The notes under the pieces are model-generated. The model had not been told where the DNA came from and ran no database searches. It saw only the letters and a list, made by a program, of their open reading frames with translations. The translations under genes were made by a program, and so were the position numbers. DNA of 64,000 bases from Lysinibacillus contaminans (lineage in GTDB: Bacteria > Bacillota > Bacilli > Bacillales_A > Planococcaceae): assembly GCF_001278945.1 (NCBI RefSeq), contig NZ_LGRV01000003.1:620001-684000 (forward strand), read 5' to 3'. Of the stretch, positions 46,762 to 59,996 are shown piece after piece; within the stretch, counting starts at the first letter, position 1; each line of letters starts with the position of its first letter.

Positions 46762-46806
46762 AAAAATGCACGCTATTCAGTATCAAACGAATAGCGTGCA
46801 TTTTTT
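46762..46806. terminator. gcv operon terminator
   Basis: AAAAATGCACGCTATTC/GAATAGCGTGCATTTTTT, 17-bp stem. Confidence 0.92.
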
Positions 46807-46958
46807 ATTTTTTAAACAAGTAGTGATTAATTTATCCTCTAGGAATTTGTGAAGTTGAAAAATTGAATTCAATTATACTTTCGATTACCCATTTATTGAA
46901 AGTAGAGGTAATTTGATGGTATTATGGTACTAATACATATGGAAGAAGAGGATATATT

Positions 46959-49934
46959 ATGAATAAATCTAAATTAGTAATTTTAGCTACAATACCTGCA
47001 GCTGTGTTAATCCCAACAACCGTTTTAGCTGCTTCAACTTCAGATATTTTTATTGAGTCAAATGATAATAGGGGAAATGTTATAAATAGTGTGTTAAACG
47101 CTAATGTTTCAAAATTATCGGACAACACAATTATTTCTTCATATCAATGGTATTATGTAGATGGCTTAAAGGAATCAGAAATAATTGGAGCTAAAAGTTC
47201 AAACTTCACTGTTCCTATGGAAGCATCGGGAAAGCAAGTTAAGGTAGTGGCGACAGATTTCGACGGAATAAAAAAATATGAATCTACTGAAGTGAGCATT
47301 TTTCCGTTAGAACTTGCTTTCCAAGAGAAATTTGCTCTTATTGTTGGTGGATCTGATGTTATAAATGAATCAGGTGATTCAATTTTCTTTACATTACCTG
47401 GAGACACACTTTCAGTTACTGATATTGATGTAAAAGATATTGGCAAAGCAGAATATAATATACCAAAAGAAAAAGTGAGTTATACATATCAATGGATGTA
47501 TAAAGTGCAGAGTCATGATGGCGGATGGGTTTACTCTGAAATACCTGGAGCGACAGGTAGTACGTACGTAGTTCCCGAAGATGCATTACAAAAAAACATG
47601 AAAGAAATAATTGTAAAAGTAACAGCGAAAGCTTTGGATCAAACAATTTCAATAAGTACAAAAAACGTAACCGTAACTACAGATGTCATAGCTTCACTTA
47701 TAGATAAAATTGATAAGATAATTGATAAGTCAAAAACGAAAAATGAATATGTTCCTATGGATGCAATTCAAGAATTAGATGAGATTTATCAATCATTTAC
47801 ACAAGCTGCAAAAATGAAAGTTTCAAATTATGACGTTTTACAAAAGGCATTAGACGATATAGCTTTAGTTAATAAAGTGGTTGAAATGATCGGGAAATTA
47901 GAATCTAATGCAAATGAAAGTACTGTAAATACAGCTCGCCAAGCGGTTGATAATTTAAATCTATTACAATCTTCACTATTAGGTGATGCCATTTTGCAAC
48001 TTACTGAGGCAGAAGCATTGTTAAATAACAATAGCCAGTTAAAAACTGCGACAAATATCATAAAAAATCACATTGTTACATTACGCTCGATTGATGGATT
48101 AGTTTCTTCCATGCCAATTTATACTACAACAGGTGGAATAGAAGATTTGGTAGTTAAAGTAGATGCGATTAAAGAAATGGTTAAGACAGAACACTTATCA
48201 AAAGAATATGCTTCTCTCGTACTAAATCATACTATTTTAAAAGAAGCGGAACTTGATGTGAAAGCTGTTTCAGGATTTATAGCAAAAGTAGATAAAATTG
48301 TAGCAACGACCATTCCTCAGAAAAAGAAGACACTTGCACAAACAGCAGATAAAGCTCATAAAGCGCTATCATTACGCCAACAATTATTAGTGACATCGGA
48401 AACAATGGAGATAATTGAAGAAGGAAAAAAAGGACTAGTTCCTGGTTCGTCACCAGTCGATCCTACAACAGGATTAGCTGAAAAGATTATGGCATTACTT
48501 GGTTCTGTAGCAGATAAGAGTGGTGTTGATGCAATCTTCAAAGATGATCCAAGATTGGACAAATTAGCGCAAGAAGTTAAAAAGCTTATTTCAGAATATA
48601 ATAAGTCTTCAAAGGAAGAAAAACTAACTGTTAATAATATCAATATCCTGAAAAGTCTTGAAACTGATATCCGTGCTGCTCAAAAGGTGATTATAAATAT
48701 TACTAAACTAGATGAAATGGAAAGTACTGAAGGTACTACACTTAAGTACAATTCATTATTCAGAACCACTTCTTCTGCCTTCCAAAAATTAACACCAGAC
48801 CAACAATTATTAGTTGGAAATGCAGATGTTTTACTAGGTGGCAATCTTAAAGATGATGATAAACTTAATGATGACGAAGCTGAAGCTGCTACATCAGATT
48901 TAGTAGCTAGCATTGCGTCATTACCTACTTTAGACAAATATAATGAATATAAGACAGAGGTAACGGAATCTACACTTCAATATAAAAAAATTGATAGCAA
49001 ATATAAAAAATATGTGACTAATTATTACGTGTTAACAGATGCAACTAAACATGTGAAAAGTATAGACGCATTTTTGAAAAAAATGAACGAAGCAATGCTT
49101 GAGAAAAGTGATGAGCGCTTTTTAACAAAAGCTAAAACGATTGAGTCAAGTTATTTAAAGTTACCAGCGTTTCAACAACAACTTATTTTTGGGGATTCGG
49201 AAGTAGGTTATCTAGCATTTAAAGAAAGACTTACTAATACCTCAAGTGATTTTAGTACTAAAGTACAAGAAGTTGAAAGTGATATTCAAGATTTAATTGT
49301 TGGCGGTGAATATGTAAAGAGTTTTGAAGATATTCGAAATCTAGAAATTGTTTATAAACGACTTTCTACAACAGAAAGAAAAGAAATACTAAGTGGAAAA
49401 ATATTAACTACTGCTATTTCAGATATGAAAAAAGTACAACAATTTGCCACTAACGCTCAAAAAAATATCCTTAAGAAGCCTTTGACGGTTGTAAATGATT
49501 TTAAAAAATTGAATAATCTTCAATTATCAATGTTGAATAAAGAATTTAACGATTTGTATCTTGCAATTAGTAATATTTTTAGTGATGTAGAAAACCAACA
49601 GGGAAGTGCGCTTACGCTAGTTGAGAGCATTAATAATCTATTTGATGGAGGGGATTATAAAGAAAATCCCAATTTCGAAGGAGAAGTTAATGATTTACTA
49701 TCTTTGTACGATAGTTTAGATGCGACTAATAAAAAGTATGTGAAAAATATTTCAAAATTAAATAGTGCGAAAAAAGATTTGGATAAAGTGTATGAAGTGC
49801 GAATGCAAGAAGAGGCGATTGTTAATTCCCCTGATAGTGAACTTGCTAGAGAAGAGTTTAAACGTGCTTATAATAAGCTAAACAATAAGCTAGCTAAGCT
49901 GTATAATCAGTTATTTGATGAGCCTTCATTATAG
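46959..49934 (+). CDS. Giant secreted helical-repeat protein with Ig-like N-terminus (copy 1, 991 aa)
   Basis: A signal peptide (1-25, ending TTVLAAS) is followed by two Ig-like units (about 30-240; SSYQWYYVDG ... IIGAKSSNFTVP and YTYQWMYKVQ ... IPGATGSTYVVP) and then about 720 residues of helical repeats. These alternate Y-x2-L-x5-K-x2-V-x-N-Y-x2-L-x2-A-x2-D (e.g. KKYVTNYYVLTDATKHVKS) with QQLLV-type units. No LPxTG, SLH, LysM, CW-binding or membrane tail is seen; it ends LYNQLFDEPSL. It is 40-ish percent similar in layout to copy 2 and more A/T-rich. Likely surface or matrix protein of unknown role. Confidence 0.72.
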   Translation: MNKSKLVILATIPAAVLIPTTVLAASTSDIFIESNDNRGNVINSVLNANVSKLSDNTIISSYQWYYVDGLKESEIIGAKSSNFTVPMEASGKQVKVVATDFDGIKKYESTEVSIFPLELAFQEKFALIVGGSDVINESGDSIFFTLPGDTLSVTDIDVKDIGKAEYNIPKEKVSYTYQWMYKVQSHDGGWVYSEIPGATGSTYVVPEDALQKNMKEIIVKVTAKALDQTISISTKNVTVTTDVIASLIDKIDKIIDKSKTKNEYVPMDAIQELDEIYQSFTQAAKMKVSNYDVLQKALDDIALVNKVVEMIGKLESNANESTVNTARQAVDNLNLLQSSLLGDAILQLTEAEALLNNNSQLKTATNIIKNHIVTLRSIDGLVSSMPIYTTTGGIEDLVVKVDAIKEMVKTEHLSKEYASLVLNHTILKEAELDVKAVSGFIAKVDKIVATTIPQKKKTLAQTADKAHKALSLRQQLLVTSETMEIIEEGKKGLVPGSSPVDPTTGLAEKIMALLGSVADKSGVDAIFKDDPRLDKLAQEVKKLISEYNKSSKEEKLTVNNINILKSLETDIRAAQKVIINITKLDEMESTEGTTLKYNSLFRTTSSAFQKLTPDQQLLVGNADVLLGGNLKDDDKLNDDEAEAATSDLVASIASLPTLDKYNEYKTEVTESTLQYKKIDSKYKKYVTNYYVLTDATKHVKSIDAFLKKMNEAMLEKSDERFLTKAKTIESSYLKLPAFQQQLIFGDSEVGYLAFKERLTNTSSDFSTKVQEVESDIQDLIVGGEYVKSFEDIRNLEIVYKRLSTTERKEILSGKILTTAISDMKKVQQFATNAQKNILKKPLTVVNDFKKLNNLQLSMLNKEFNDLYLAISNIFSDVENQQGSALTLVESINNLFDGGDYKENPNFEGEVNDLLSLYDSLDATNKKYVKNISKLNSAKKDLDKVYEVRMQEEAIVNSPDSELAREEFKRAYNKLNNKLAKLYNQLFDEPSL

Positions 49935-50147
49935 GCAGAAAAGACTTAGTTAGCGTTCGCTACTTCTTGTTGAGTCATAAAATTCCAATATGAATTTCTT
50001 CTTAATGTAAGTCATTAGACAGCTATTGTTATTCTTTATAGAAGAATCTAATGTTTTTTTCGTAAAAAGAGCTGGCGTTCAATAAGGGATGGACCCCTGT
50101 ATATATGACAGAGGTCAAAAAGTATCTACCATCCAGTTATCGGTATT
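49935..50147. other. Left flank of the IS3 remnant
   Basis: This stretch contains AAGGGATGGACCCCTGTATA followed by GACAGAGGTCAAAAAGTA near 50084-50122, which looks like one end of an IS3/IS150-type element. The rest (49935-50080) has no frame or structure I can support. Confidence 0.4.
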
Positions 50148-50522
50148 GTACCGGTGACTGGTTGTTTAGTTTCGCCTATATTCGTATATAATTAAAATAT
50201 TTTATATAGTCTTTGACAGTTTGTTCTACGATTGCCTTCGTAGTATTTCTTAAGCTGTTTAAGTAGAATGTTTCAGACTTTAATGGATTAGATGGGGCAT
50301 TATCAGAGGGCGTACCTTTACGGGACTCGCTCATGATAACGCCTTTGCCGTTGATATTGATAAGACGTTGTACACCGAACCGTGGTCCCTATGCAGCTTA
50401 CAGCCCTCAGGTAAAGTACCTAGTTGGGATAAGGTAGTCAATAGGAAATCAGTATCTTAGCCAGCACCAATTAAATAGGCGATAATCTCGCTATTATATA
50501 AACCTTGAATACTTGAAAGAAA
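50148..50522 (-). pseudogene. IS3-family transposase OrfB, C-terminal remnant
   Basis: On the minus strand one frame reads LYNSEIIAYLIGAG-stop and LPEGCKLHRDHGSVYNVLS; after a frameshift near 50335 the next reads SESRKGTPSDNAPSNPLKSE, FYLNSLRNTTKAIVEQTVKD and YIKYFNYIRI-stop-AKLNNQSPVQYR. This is the DDE catalytic end of IS3/IS150 OrfB (SMSRKG..DNAPIESFH..LKSE in intact copies), with stops, a frameshift and a short deletion after DNAP. It is dead and lacks its first half. Confidence 0.8.
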
Positions 50523-50717
50523 CATATGATATGCGGAATAAGTGTGCTCAAAAATCATTTGAATGCGGCTAGGCTAAACCTACGCTCAAGATACTTGAAT
50601 TGAACCAAATATCCAGTAGAAAACACCTCATTTTATGTAGATTGTGTGAAACAAATAAAGTTCCACGGAATGTGACCGATATAGGTTTTAGAAGGATAGA
50701 GGAGGACTGAACAAATA

Positions 50718-53594
50718 TTGAATAAAAAATTACTTTTTGCAGTAGCGGCTATCCCAGTGATCTTTGTGGCACCAACAGTAACGGGAGCAGAAAATTTATC
50801 AGGTATTACAATTACAGGGACTGCTAGTGTCAATGGTACACTGACAGCGTCAATTTCTAACTTGCCGGTAGGTACGACTATCAAAGGTTATCAATGGTAT
50901 TATATTGAAGAAAAATCAGGTGATGGTGGGTCAACGACGAGAAAGCCAATTTCCGGTGCAACGCAAGCTACCTTTAAGTTGCCAGCAGAAGCTGCAGGTA
51001 AAACGATTACTGTAGAAGCTACAGATACGAATAGCAATAAATACGAAGGTGATTCTCGTGTAGTAAAGGAACTAGCTCTTGCTATTACGGCTCCAACTTT
51101 TGAAGGGCATTCAGCTTCAAGCTTTGTAGCACCAGGTGAAACAGTAAAAATAACTGGGGCGGACGTAACAGATAAAGCGGGTGCCGAGTTAGAAAGTAGT
51201 CAAATTACATATAGCTATCAATGGTTTTATAAAGTGGGGGAACAATTTACAATTATCAGCGGTGCGACTGATCGTACGTATAAAGTTCCAGCAGATGCAT
51301 TAGACAAAAAAATGATTAATATTATTGTCAAGGCAACAGCGAAGGTAGGAACATCTGTAGTGGTGTCAGATTTTTCGCATATGCTGACGGTGTCCAACGA
51401 GGCATCAAACACAATGATTGAGGATATTGGAAAGTTACGTGTAAGCGACAGCAAATATAACTTTACAGATTTAGCAGTATTTACAGCAGAAGTAAAGGCA
51501 CTAGAAAGTAAGTATCAAGCCTTGGCAGATGCTGCAAAGGCAAATGTGACAAATTATGTTGTACTTAAGCGAGCACTTGCTGATGTAGAAGCTATCAATG
51601 CCTTAAATGAAAAAGTGAATAAGGTCGACGTTAGTGATAAAGACCTGCCCAAACATTTAAAAGACATTGAAGAGGCCTATGACAAGCTTGATTTATTGCA
51701 GCGTAGCTTAGATGTTGGGGATATTTTATATAATAATATTAGAGCTATGATGAAAGAACCAACAGATATCGTAGACATTGCCCAAGTGAGAATACTGAGT
51801 CAAGCGATTGTTGACTTATTAAACTATGATAATAATGTTATTAAATACGTACCTACTAGTGTGGAGTCATTACAAGCGGCCGTTGAGAAGATTGAAGCCG
51901 ACATTGCGAAGCTTTCAAAAAGCTACCAAACAACGGTACAAAATCAAGCGATTTTAAATGAAGCGAAGCAAGATATCAAAAAGATAGCACAATTTATTAA
52001 ACTCTTTGAAAAATTGTCAGGAAATATTGCACCAGACAAGCAAGTGACGACTGCAAAATCCATTCGTACCGCATATGAAAAGTTAACTTACAAACAGCTA
52101 CAGTTAGTGCCAGATACTTATGTAACGAAATTACTAGAAGCAGAAAATGCAGAAGAAACTCAAATTGCTACTATAAATACAGAGATAGATAGCTATATTG
52201 GAGATGATATCTATCCAATAAATCCGACAGCGGAAACATGGCAGGCTCATGTGAGCAATGTAAACCGAATTATCGCTTCGTATAAAAATTTAACGACAAA
52301 TTCAGAGGCTAAAGTCATAGGTTATGCAGCCATCGTGACGTTACAAAAAGACTTAAAGACAGCTGAAAAAATTATTAAGCAAATAGAGGAATATAATGCG
52401 CTCACAGCCATAAATGGTGTGAAAGAAAGTAAACTAGAATCGAGTTATAACAGTGCTTTAAAGGCTTATAATAAGCTGACGAGTTTGCAACAATCTCTTG
52501 TCTATAATGAAGATAAGCTATTAAATAATCCACCGAATATGACGGTTGATAATAACGGGAAAGAGCCAGCAGATAAAGCAGCAGCTGAAGTGCTAAAAGC
52601 TGATATCGCAAAGTTTGCTGACCTAACAAAATATTCGTTCACACAACTAGAAACAGCAGTAAATACAGCAACAACTACTTACAAAAATCTTTCATCTGCT
52701 GCGCGTAAGTATGTCACGAATTATTATTTATTAACAGCAGCAAGTAAAGATGTTAAGGCCGTAGTGTCCTTCCATAAAAAAGTACAAGCCGCTCGTGAAG
52801 AAACGGATGTTGCCAAGCAAGCGAAAAAAATTGAGTCTGTAGAAAAGGCTTATGCAAAATTACCTGCAAATCAGCAGCATTTAGCAAAAGAGCAATATCA
52901 ATTACTACTAGATAAACGTCCTGCAGATGGCAATGCATCAGATATTGTCACGTTAAATACTGATATCGGAAAAATGGTTTCCAACGGTTTATATACTGTG
53001 ACTATAGAAGGAATTCAACAGCTTTCTGCACAATATAAAAAACTTAGTACAAGCGATAAAAAGCTTATAACGAACGCCTCTATTTTAAAAACTGCTGAAG
53101 CTGATGTGAAAAAAGTGGAGTCGTTTATGAAGCAGTACGATAAATCATTCGAAAAATCGCCAGCAACGGTCGTTAAAGCTTTCGCTAAGCTTACAGCAAA
53201 GCAAATGAATCTAGTGAGTGAAAATGTTCGCCAAAAGATTATTGAAGCGGAAAAGGGACAACAAGGGGCGAATGAAACGGCATTTGGCTTAGTGGAGTCC
53301 ATCAATACACTTCTTCAAAATGGTGTATACAAGGCTAACTTGCAAGCTGATGTGACGATCATTCGAACGGCATATGACAAGCTGAGTGCTTCTGAAAAAA
53401 GTGTCGTGAAAAACTATTCGAAGCTAACACAAGCTGAGGCGGATTTAAAAAAGGTAGCAGAGGTGCATACCCTATATGAAGCAATCACAGCAGAAAATAG
53501 TGATACTGCCCGTAAAGCTTGGGAAACAGCCTTTGCAAAACTGTCAAAAAAATTAGAACTTCTATATACGGATATGTATAAGGGTGATAAATAA
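50718..53594 (+). CDS. Giant secreted helical-repeat protein with Ig-like N-terminus (copy 2, 958 aa)
   Basis: Paralogue of the 991-residue protein upstream. Signal peptide (1-24, ending VTGAEN), two Ig-like units (about 25-235; KGYQWYYIEE ... ISGATQATFKLP and YSYQWFYKVG ... ISGATDRTYKVP) and about 720 residues of the same alternating helical repeats (AKANVTNYVVLKRALADVEA, RKYVTNYYLLTAASKDVKAV, SLVYNEDKLL). It ends LYTDMYKGDK with no recognisable anchor. TTG start, about 12 bases after GGAGGA. A terminator follows. Codon use is less A/T-biased than copy 1, so one copy may be newer or differently expressed. Confidence 0.74.
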   Translation: MNKKLLFAVAAIPVIFVAPTVTGAENLSGITITGTASVNGTLTASISNLPVGTTIKGYQWYYIEEKSGDGGSTTRKPISGATQATFKLPAEAAGKTITVEATDTNSNKYEGDSRVVKELALAITAPTFEGHSASSFVAPGETVKITGADVTDKAGAELESSQITYSYQWFYKVGEQFTIISGATDRTYKVPADALDKKMINIIVKATAKVGTSVVVSDFSHMLTVSNEASNTMIEDIGKLRVSDSKYNFTDLAVFTAEVKALESKYQALADAAKANVTNYVVLKRALADVEAINALNEKVNKVDVSDKDLPKHLKDIEEAYDKLDLLQRSLDVGDILYNNIRAMMKEPTDIVDIAQVRILSQAIVDLLNYDNNVIKYVPTSVESLQAAVEKIEADIAKLSKSYQTTVQNQAILNEAKQDIKKIAQFIKLFEKLSGNIAPDKQVTTAKSIRTAYEKLTYKQLQLVPDTYVTKLLEAENAEETQIATINTEIDSYIGDDIYPINPTAETWQAHVSNVNRIIASYKNLTTNSEAKVIGYAAIVTLQKDLKTAEKIIKQIEEYNALTAINGVKESKLESSYNSALKAYNKLTSLQQSLVYNEDKLLNNPPNMTVDNNGKEPADKAAAEVLKADIAKFADLTKYSFTQLETAVNTATTTYKNLSSAARKYVTNYYLLTAASKDVKAVVSFHKKVQAAREETDVAKQAKKIESVEKAYAKLPANQQHLAKEQYQLLLDKRPADGNASDIVTLNTDIGKMVSNGLYTVTIEGIQQLSAQYKKLSTSDKKLITNASILKTAEADVKKVESFMKQYDKSFEKSPATVVKAFAKLTAKQMNLVSENVRQKIIEAEKGQQGANETAFGLVESINTLLQNGVYKANLQADVTIIRTAYDKLSASEKSVVKNYSKLTQAEADLKKVAEVHTLYEAITAENSDTARKAWETAFAKLSKKLELLYTDMYKGDK

Positions 53595-57422: not shown

Positions 57423-59996
57423 ATGATGGTAATCACTAATCATCAACCCGAAGTAAACAAACAAATAGAACAATTAAATAAGGACATTGAGCAATTCCCA
57501 CAAGTTCATCCGGTAACACCAGACATGCACATAACGCATAAAGGTGTATCGAGACTTGTCATGATTGATCGTTATTCTTTTAAAGATACGGAAAAGAAAA
57601 CGCTAAAAGCTGGTGATTTCGTCGTATTAACGGTGAAGGCAGATCCAAAATTTCCTGCACGTGGTTTAGGGACAATCCAAAAAATAGATTGGTCTGCAAA
57701 AACAGCAGATATTTTAGTTGAGGAAGATTATCGTAGCGTTTTAGATGATCCAATAGAGCAAGAAACGGGTGTGATTACGCGCTCAATCGAAGTGCTAGAA
57801 AAGCCTCTTGAAATTTTTTATGAGCAAATTGCAAAACGAAATGCAACTGGACTTGCTTCTGTAGAAAAAACAGCTGAGAAACGTCAAGAATGGTTTGAGA
57901 AGTTTTACGAGCAATTAGTATCACTAAAGTTCATTCCAGCTGGCCGTGTTCTTTACGGAGCAGGCTCTGAAACAGATGTAACATTCTTTAACTGTTACGT
58001 TATGCCATTTGTGGCGGATTCACGTGAAGGTATCAGTGACCATCGTAAGCAAGTAATGGAAATTATGAGTCGTGGTGGCGGTGTTGGGACAAACGGTTCT
58101 ACACTTCGTCCACGTAACACATTAGCTCGTGGTGTTAACGGTAAATCTTCAGGATCTGTATCATGGCTAGATGACATCGCTAAGCTGACTCACCTTGTTG
58201 AGCAAGGTGGTTCAAGACGTGGTGCACAAATGATTATGCTAGCAGACTGGCATCCAGATATTGTGGAATTCATTATTTCGAAAATGCAAAATCCGCGTAT
58301 TTTACGTTACTTAATCGAAAATACGACTGATGAATCGATTATTCGATTAGCAAAAGAAAAATTAAACTTTAAGCCTTTATCTCAACAAGATGAAGCGATG
58401 TATCAAGGAATTGTTAACTATAAATCAATCCCAGGATACGGTGGATTCGATGAGGCAATTATCCGTGAAGCAGAAAATAAATTACGTGACGGTGGTACTT
58501 ACACTGTTCATAACTCAGAGTTTTTAACTGGGGCAAACATTTCTGTTACATTAACAAAAGACTTTATGGACGCTGTTGAAAAAGACGAAGATTTCGAGCT
58601 TCGTTTCCCAGCAGTTGAAGAATATACAAAAGAAGAAATGGCTATTTATAATAGTGAATGGCATAAAGTTGGAGACGTTCGTGAGTGGGAGAAGATGGGC
58701 TATAAAGTACGTACATACCGTACGATTAAAGCAAAAGAGTTGTGGAATTTAATTAATATTTGTGCAACTTATTCTGCAGAGCCAGGTATCTTCTTCATCG
58801 ATAATGCGAATGAAATGACTAACGCAAAAGCTTATGGTCAACAAGTAGTAGCAACAAACCCTTGTGGGGAACAACCACTTGCACCCTATTCTGTGTGTAA
58901 CTTAGCAGCTGTGAACTTAGCGCAGTTTGCGATTAAAGAAAATCAAACAGTCGATTATGAAGCATTACGTGAGACAGTACGTGTCGGGGTACGTATGCAA
59001 GACAACGTAATTGACGCAACGCCTTACTTCTTAGAAGAAAACCGTGTACAAGCTCTTGGTGAGCGCCGTGTTGGTTTAGGTGTAATGGGCTTAGCAGACT
59101 TACTTATTTATTGTGAGAAAGAGTACGGGTCAGAAGCTGGTAATGAACTGGTTGATGAAATCTTCAAGACAATTGCGGAAACAGCGTATGAGGCATCGAC
59201 AGAGCTTGCGAAAGAGCGTGGAAGCTTCCCATTCCTAGTAGGGGCAACCGACGAAGAAACAGCTCGTCTACGTAAAGCATTTACAGAAACTGGATTCATG
59301 CAAAACATGCCTGCACATGTAAAAGAGCAAATTCTAGCAACTGGTATTCGTAACTCTCATCTTCTAACGGTAGCGCCAACAGGATCTACAGGAACGATGG
59401 TCGGCGTAGCAACTGGGCTCGAGCCATACTTCTCATTTACGTATTACCGTTCAGGTCGCTTAGGTAAATTTATTGAAGTGAAAGCCGAAATCGTCCAAGA
59501 ATATTTAGATCGTCATCCAGAAGCAAAAGAAGACGAATTACCAGAATGGTTTGTGACAGCGATGGCATTAAAACCAGAAGCGCATGCAGACGTACAATGT
59601 ATTATTCAAAAATGGATTGATTCTTCTATTTCTAAAACAGTAAACGCGCCAAAAGGCTATACAGTTGGACAAGTAGAAAAAGTATACGAGCGTCTATATA
59701 AAGGTGGCGCTAAAGGTGGTACGGTTTACGTTGATGGAAGCCGTGATTCACAAGTATTAACACTAAAAGCCGAAGAAAATGATATGGACCAGCTATCATT
59801 TGGCGAAGATTTAGTGGAAGAACAAATAGCGCGTCCAGTCGTATTAGTTGATACGATTCAAGCACTTACATCTACATCAGTAATTGGTTCAGATGTTGGG
59901 AATACATGCCCTGTTTGTCGTAAAGGAACAGTCGAAGAAATGGGCGGCTGTAACACATGTACAAATTGTGGTGCACAGCTGAAATGTGGACTTTAA
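57423..59996 (+). CDS. nrdJ: Adenosylcobalamin-dependent (class II) ribonucleotide reductase
   Basis: The 857-residue enzyme reduces ribonucleotides to deoxyribonucleotides with B12 and needs no oxygen. Catalytic region: FFNCYVMPF (first redox Cys), NPCGEQPLAPYSVCNL (thiyl-radical Cys, Glu) and VAPTGSTGTMVG. The C-terminus is a zinc-ribbon-like CPVCRKGTVEE with CNTCTNCGAQLKCG, the form typical of NrdJ-Z. ATG behind GGGAGGCTAA (next Met is also possible). No B12 riboswitch was seen upstream; two NrdR boxes are present. The operon ends at a terminator. Confidence 0.93.
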   Translation: MMVITNHQPEVNKQIEQLNKDIEQFPQVHPVTPDMHITHKGVSRLVMIDRYSFKDTEKKTLKAGDFVVLTVKADPKFPARGLGTIQKIDWSAKTADILVEEDYRSVLDDPIEQETGVITRSIEVLEKPLEIFYEQIAKRNATGLASVEKTAEKRQEWFEKFYEQLVSLKFIPAGRVLYGAGSETDVTFFNCYVMPFVADSREGISDHRKQVMEIMSRGGGVGTNGSTLRPRNTLARGVNGKSSGSVSWLDDIAKLTHLVEQGGSRRGAQMIMLADWHPDIVEFIISKMQNPRILRYLIENTTDESIIRLAKEKLNFKPLSQQDEAMYQGIVNYKSIPGYGGFDEAIIREAENKLRDGGTYTVHNSEFLTGANISVTLTKDFMDAVEKDEDFELRFPAVEEYTKEEMAIYNSEWHKVGDVREWEKMGYKVRTYRTIKAKELWNLINICATYSAEPGIFFIDNANEMTNAKAYGQQVVATNPCGEQPLAPYSVCNLAAVNLAQFAIKENQTVDYEALRETVRVGVRMQDNVIDATPYFLEENRVQALGERRVGLGVMGLADLLIYCEKEYGSEAGNELVDEIFKTIAETAYEASTELAKERGSFPFLVGATDEETARLRKAFTETGFMQNMPAHVKEQILATGIRNSHLLTVAPTGSTGTMVGVATGLEPYFSFTYYRSGRLGKFIEVKAEIVQEYLDRHPEAKEDELPEWFVTAMALKPEAHADVQCIIQKWIDSSISKTVNAPKGYTVGQVEKVYERLYKGGAKGGTVYVDGSRDSQVLTLKAEENDMDQLSFGEDLVEEQIARPVVLVDTIQALTSTSVIGSDVGNTCPVCRKGTVEEMGGCNTCTNCGAQLKCGL

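Follow-up and report, generated by a model that had tools for sequence, protein, structure and literature searches.

A genus-core Ig-plus-helical-repeat protein of Lysinibacillus, probably a surface protein of swimming cells, and its optional paralog

In the 64,000-nucleotide stretch of Lysinibacillus DNA that was analysed (the window), gcvPB is followed by two long open reading frames, here called P1 and P2, and then by an amino-acid permease gene (Table 1). Both frames are genuine and their products are paralogs of each other, aligning over their whole length with 31% identity (1023 columns, BLASTP E 7e-111). A first-pass annotation of this DNA had described two large, secreted-looking paralogs with Ig-like and helical parts, and the reading frames, the BLASTP alignment, a repeat profile and a structural model of P2 all agree with that description. 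The dead transposase that it placed between the copies was likewise found, as a single short frame matching PF13333 (rve_2; E 1e-4, 22.8 bits against a cut-off of 22), which we take to be of IS3 type, following the naming in that annotation. What it called a permease is one, more exactly an amino-acid permease (PF00324). It also quoted the gene order of B. subtilis, where yqhL presumably lies directly after gcvPB. The terminator-like hairpin in the gap between gcvPB and P1 is near-symmetrical and therefore may act for either side.

Table 1. Positions of the features discussed, in the window unless a genome, contig or locus handle is given
Feature	Position	Strand	Description and evidence
Terminator-like hairpin, gcvPB/P1 gap	46762..46805	.	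18-pair stem; scan lists the - strand
P1 promoter-like site, sigma-A type	46896..46925	+	TTGAAA-18-TATTAT, TG before -10
P1, accessory paralog	46959..49934	+	991 aa, ATG start
P1 Ig-like domains, two	47037..47678 (limits approximate)	+	YQW units, NCBIfam sub-threshold match, homology to modelled P2 domains
P1 helical part, 12 repeat units	47688..49931	+	Profile matches
IS3-type (presumed) transposase remnant, P1/P2 gap	50176..50388	-	One short frame, PF13333 rve_2
Predicted sigma-D promoter of P2	50656..50682	+	TAAA-N15-ACCGATAT
P2, genus-core protein	50718..53594	+	958 aa, TTG start after AGAGGAGG
P2 Ig-like domains, two	50799..51395 (limits approximate)	+	AF2 model, Foldseek
P2 helical part, 12 units, alternating odd/even types	51402..53591	+	Grown profile, odd/even scores, AF2
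R3	G000:C2:380069-384031 (L045:12070-16032)		Repeat profile
Transglutaminase/SLH repeat protein	L084:1190-6475, G000:C5	-	1761 aa, transglutaminase-like domain, 12 units, three SLH
Interrupted nrd gene	L022:17165-20870; also L023, L024, L032, L015 (cut by locus end)		

Both N-termini look like signal peptides when read by eye, and each protein then carries two YQW units (at 62 and 177 in P1, at 58 and 167 in P2). The AF2 model of P2 consists of two beta-rich domains (~28-226) and then helices up to the C-terminus, with a mean pLDDT of 83.6 and a pTM of 0.48 for the full model and of 88.7 and 0.67 for the helical part modelled alone. Foldseek with the full model returned generic Ig/FnIII tandems (best E 2.3e-4). 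The one sub-threshold NCBIfam match common to P1 and P2, ZirU_fam (NF040485), falls on the Ig-like part with 32.5 and 28.8 bits respectively; these scores lie far under the curated cut-off of 100, and membership of the ZirU family was rejected.

Searches of P1 and P2 with Pfam and NCBIfam at E up to 1 gave no SLH, LysM, GW, sortase or other anchor. SLH (PF00395) is absent from both by Pfam in a genome whose search otherwise gives 85 SLH matches. Each C-terminus is the last helical unit, with no LPxTG-like sortase signal by eye and no Pfam anchor. No Pfam family is above cut-off in either protein, hence no known adhesive and stalk domain, and there was no PHROG match at E<=1e-3. Known enzyme or binding domains were sought in P1, P2, the R3 protein introduced below and six distant or P1-like relatives, and none was above cut-off. 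The earlier statement that the pair has no recognised anchor and no assigned family therefore stands as far as the Pfam and NCBIfam scans go.

Conservation is uneven along P2. Mean identity to our P2 among 17 orthologs is 46% in the first Ig domain, the least conserved part of the protein, 60% in the second, 63% in the helices and 83% at residues 691-720. This pattern, with the helices and residues 691-720 better kept than the first Ig domain, would suit a conserved contact in the rod combined with a variable tip; the first-pass annotation had suggested that the Ig-like part might bind wall polymer, and the variability of the first domain does not favour this part as a conserved anchor, nor does it exclude it. 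Three P1-like relatives (L047, L048, L049) apparently have an extra N-terminal Ig-like unit by eye, three instead of two, and tip length therefore appears to vary.

The helical part spans ~730 residues in both proteins and is made of a ~55-aa unit present in 12 copies in each. To describe this unit we used a profile started from R3, a third protein of the same genome, and grown to take in the P1 and P2 units. At i-E<0.01 the grown profile recognises 10 units in P1 and 12 in P2, the weakest two P1 units having i-E 0.34 and 0.76. The repeats exceed chance: the seed profile from R3 alone finds 9 units in P2 and 8 in P1 at i-E<0.01, and any such unit occurs in 2 of 50 shuffled controls for P2 and 1 of 50 for P1. 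Within P2, units of the same type are more alike (mean local score 45.6 among odd units, 47.8 among even ones) than an odd and an even unit are (30.4), which allows the rod to be read as six modules of two units each.

The unit itself has no match in Pfam or NCBIfam, and no solved structure matches the helical part at E<=0.001, whether compared by sequence or by fold; in the Foldseek search with the P2 helical part, where again nothing reached E<=0.001, the best 50 rows all had TM below 0.2. Several candidate relationships were taken as chance. Among solved relatives by sequence the best E was 0.11 both for profile A1 (JetA) and for R3. A likeness of repeat profile A2 to DnaJ (best E 0.006) covers 30 positions and was put down to chance or short-helix likeness. 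Pfam searches of 19 members of profile A1 returned nine mutually unrelated families, each in 1-4 members at E 0.0004-0.01.

The same unit occurs in other proteins. R3 (1320 aa) contains 21 units, 20 of them at i-E<0.01, and has no Pfam anchor; it was found in 32 of 32 genus genomes, and in a good part of them the alignment is split in two or the match is partial and to a shorter protein. By these searches R3 appears to be a second core protein with no recognised anchor. Over 299 genomes of the phylum, seven match the repeat profile at E<=1e-4, a strict cut for a unit as short as ~55 aa, and our own genome is among them. When five unit-bearing Bacillota proteins, the one of this genome included, were searched with Pfam, four had SLH; the fifth ends by eye in QTGDG followed by a membrane helix and a basic tail. 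Read in the same way, two further unit-bearing proteins end in SPQTGD or SPKTGD with a membrane helix and basic tail, two in SLH-like sequence, and in another two or three no anchor was recognised. One such SLH-anchored protein, the 1761-aa product at L084, shares with P1 and P2 twelve copies of the unit and a signal-peptide-like start and differs from them in having three SLH domains and a transglutaminase-like domain; it is possibly a cross-linking surface enzyme. The ~55-aa unit is thus a component of Bacillota surface proteins, most of which are equipped with an anchor of their own, and against this background P1, P2 and R3, with no recognised anchor, are unusual. The surface role suggested in the first-pass annotation gains from the presence of the unit in SLH proteins. 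The unit has no curated family, and naming it would aid the annotation of large exoproteins.

P2 is part of the genus core and the P1 type is optional. P2 was found nearly full length and with no internal stop in 32 of 32 Lysinibacillus genomes; in the 31 other than ours, identity is 57-71% and the alignment runs from residue 1 or 2 to 953-958. Five genomes of one related genus have P2 at 55-56% identity, and over the family 63 of 250 genomes match at E<=0.001, many only over part of the repeat region. A full-length P1-type second copy is present in seven of the 32 genus genomes, in all seven on the same strand as P2 and upstream of it, and the other 25 carry P2 with no P1-type copy detected (E<=1e-15). 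In 16 of 21 GenBank loci the 9 kb after P2 contain the same amino-acid permease and yqhL; gcvPB lies upstream in four of the 21, the flank compared being only 9 kb. The setting of P2 is not peculiar to this genome, as its position is common to much of the genus, and the variable element of the locus is P1. The content of intervening genes also varied among the seven loci compared. The proposal that P1 and P2 were inserted as a pair consequently fails, given these counts and the differing predicted promoters described below.

At the P2 loci of L. piscis, two Metasolibacillus and B. ndiopicus, the window-neighbour genes tested were not matched; P2 of L. piscis (L025) and of Metasolibacillus meyeri (L028) occupies another genomic position, downstream of a gene that looks like cutC by eye. 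Phage-like genes follow P2 in L016 (by eye). A phage or plasmid origin was considered, but searches of phage and of plasmid records gave nothing at E 1e-8, which counts against a mobile origin. A phylogenetic tree is consistent with a common origin of P1 and three P1-like copies (support 93/90), a join on long branches of the kind that the program warns may be false; a single old P1 lineage is compatible with this tree. At L038, in a genome assigned to another genus (G073), P2 has 66% identity, above many genus members, and TAAA-N15-ACCGATAT stands upstream; either P2 was transferred or the genus label is at odds.

The published sigma-D consensus is TAAA-N15-GCCGATAT (PMC5200910). Upstream of our P2, TAAA-N15-ACCGATAT agrees with this flagellar consensus at 11 of 12 bases, and its -10 at 7 of 8. 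We compared 31 P2 loci, from 30 of the 32 genus genomes and G073 (L109 counted from residue 2). CCGATA[T/C] stands at -38 to -44 from the start in 29 of them and GTCGATAT in the other two; as a rough background rate, 5 out of 1054 stretches, each of 120 bases, most of them coding and their strands mixed, contained [ACG]CCGATA[TC]. The -35 is less constant: TAAA-N14-16-NCCGATA is found in three of the 31, ours included, and most of the 28 that lack TAAA have an A-rich AAAGGAAATT-like block in its place. A properly spaced TAAA was counted in 3 of the 21 GenBank loci, and TAAA-N14-16-NCCGATA in all three loci of Metasolibacillus and B. ndiopicus (L028, L030, L033).

Flagellin genes of the genus offer a comparison. 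Upstream of the first flagellin, TAAA is accompanied by a -10 of CGATA type in 29 of 30 cases, and this -10 is nearly always TACGATAT or AACGATAT, not CCGATAT. For the second flagellin, read in 20 of the 32 genus genomes, CCGATAT is present upstream of 17 genes (13 times as ACCGATAT) and missing from three. In G074 the pattern RAAA-N13-RCCGATAT precedes both P2 and a flagellin gene. A genome-wide promoter search was rejected as stand-alone proof of sigma-D: TAAA-N14-16-CCGATA occurs 51 times in our genome against 68 for the reversed control and RAAA-N13-RCCGATAT 7 times against 7, neither in excess, which leaves position and conservation as the sole argument. With the -35 kept in so few loci (3 of 31), sigma-D control of P2 is likely at most.

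For P1, the sigma-A-type site TTGAAA-18-TATTAT is one of 24 matches at 10 of 12 bases where shuffles give 27.6 by chance, and the match is therefore weak taken alone. TG-N-TATAAT-like sites were seen by eye upstream of all three P1-like genes read, out of six relatives with a P1-like copy, and neither P1 nor these three have CGATA[T/C] within 300 bases. As predicted, then, the promoters of P1 and P2 differ.

Its presence in all genus genomes and its flagellar-like promoter make P2 a probable, so far uncharacterised rod on the surface of swimming cells. The fuller proposal, that P2 is a genus-core rod protein of motile cells held non-covalently and P1 an optional paralog under separate control, seems to us about evenly poised between right and wrong. 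Sigma-D would transcribe P2 alongside the flagella, and the protein would be exported by Sec in motile cells. Its 12-unit helical part would form an extended rod of six modules, with the N-terminal Ig-like pair as the working end. Non-covalent contact with wall polymer, the S-layer or SLH-anchored repeat proteins would keep it at the cell surface or in the matrix, where it may act in surface spreading, adhesion or cell spacing during the motile phase. P1, probably the older paralog, would be accessory and read from a sigma-A-type promoter; given the different predicted promoter types, cells probably make the two proteins in separate states rather than always together. Among the open-licence papers listed for Lysinibacillus surface proteins, exoproteomes and swarming, none, judged by its entry, describes P1 or P2 or offers data on their expression, localisation or phenotype.

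The main alternative, which appears rather doubtful, is that P2 is an accessory rod of the vegetative wall or S-layer, independent of motility, with CCGATAT belonging to a sigma-A -10 (GATATAAT) or being a regulator site whose likeness to sigma-D is accidental. In many P2 orthologs the element does read GATATAAT, with TATAAT inside it, and TAAA is missing from most; R3, which adjoins SLH genes and has a gene that resembles csaB by eye ~14 kb away, shows a related CTT(G/A)AAA-N-CCGATA upstream in 19 of the 20 loci read (of 30, start codons picked mechanically). However, our P2 has GATATAGG at this place, and GATATAGA or GATATAGT stands there in three related loci, so that CCGATA (29/31) and not TATAAT is what is kept, and the same CCGATAT -10 also precedes the second flagellin.

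It is unlikely that P2 is instead a freely secreted matrix or adhesin protein, whose rod would link cells or bind foreign surfaces through Ig-like tips. The missing anchor would fit, and in a survey of fibrillar-adhesin-like proteins (PMC8286594) nearly half of these have no known anchor; like P1 and P2, they are described there as having a long secreted multidomain stalk. They were, however, found there by Pfam adhesive and stalk domains, none of which reaches cut-off in P1 or P2, and the ~55-aa repeat is combined with SLH in other proteins. Finally, a heteromeric fibre with P1 and P2 as one functional unit would account for two adjacent, same-strand genes with the same domain plan but is very improbable, since 25 of 32 genus genomes manage with P2 and no detected P1-type copy and the predicted promoters differ.

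SbsC of G. stearothermophilus consists of helical bundles and was absent among the rows listed in our structure comparisons of P1/P2-type sequence and fold. SbsC is elongated with an N-terminal wall-polymer-binding domain (PMC12175726), and Slp1-3 of Viridibacillus arvi have a mature pI of 7.8-9.3 (PMC4902306); both are S-layer proteins kept on the surface without SLH and, like P2, have few or no Cys. Against the V. arvi values, the pI is 5.06 for our P1 and 6.56 for our P2, and in 21 P2 orthologs it ranges from 5.98 to 9.00; electrostatic wall binding through a high pI, as in V. arvi, is thus not a common feature and was set aside. SlhA of Paenibacillus alvei is an SLH surface protein needed for swarming and biofilm (PMC3776848). 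It shows that movement over surfaces can depend on a surface protein, the role proposed for P2; the two are likened by role alone, as SlhA is SLH-anchored and P1 and P2 lack SLH.

A bolder version of the motile-cell reading, and quite an unlikely one, would make P2 a coat of the motility phase: an anchorless rod of three-helix units, driven by sigma-D in every species and docked in a new way, which in some species is swapped for the sigma-A paralog when motility is off. Docking would be by repeat-to-repeat contact with the unit-bearing SLH-anchored proteins or by direct binding of wall polymer. At the least, a ~100-kDa protein with no named family or known attachment is intact in every one of the 32 genus genomes examined, and if sigma-D control is true, this would point to a surface component that belongs to motile Gram-positive cells in particular.

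The P2 loci also yielded an observation on a neighbouring gene. In five of them (L022, L023, L024, L032, L015) an insert of ~1.1-1.2 kb splits the nrd (ribonucleotide reductase) gene around residue 265; L022 and L023 have a second insert, of ~245 bases, around residue 482. These inserts are intron- or intein-like; the window's own nrd copy (57423-59996) is uninterrupted.
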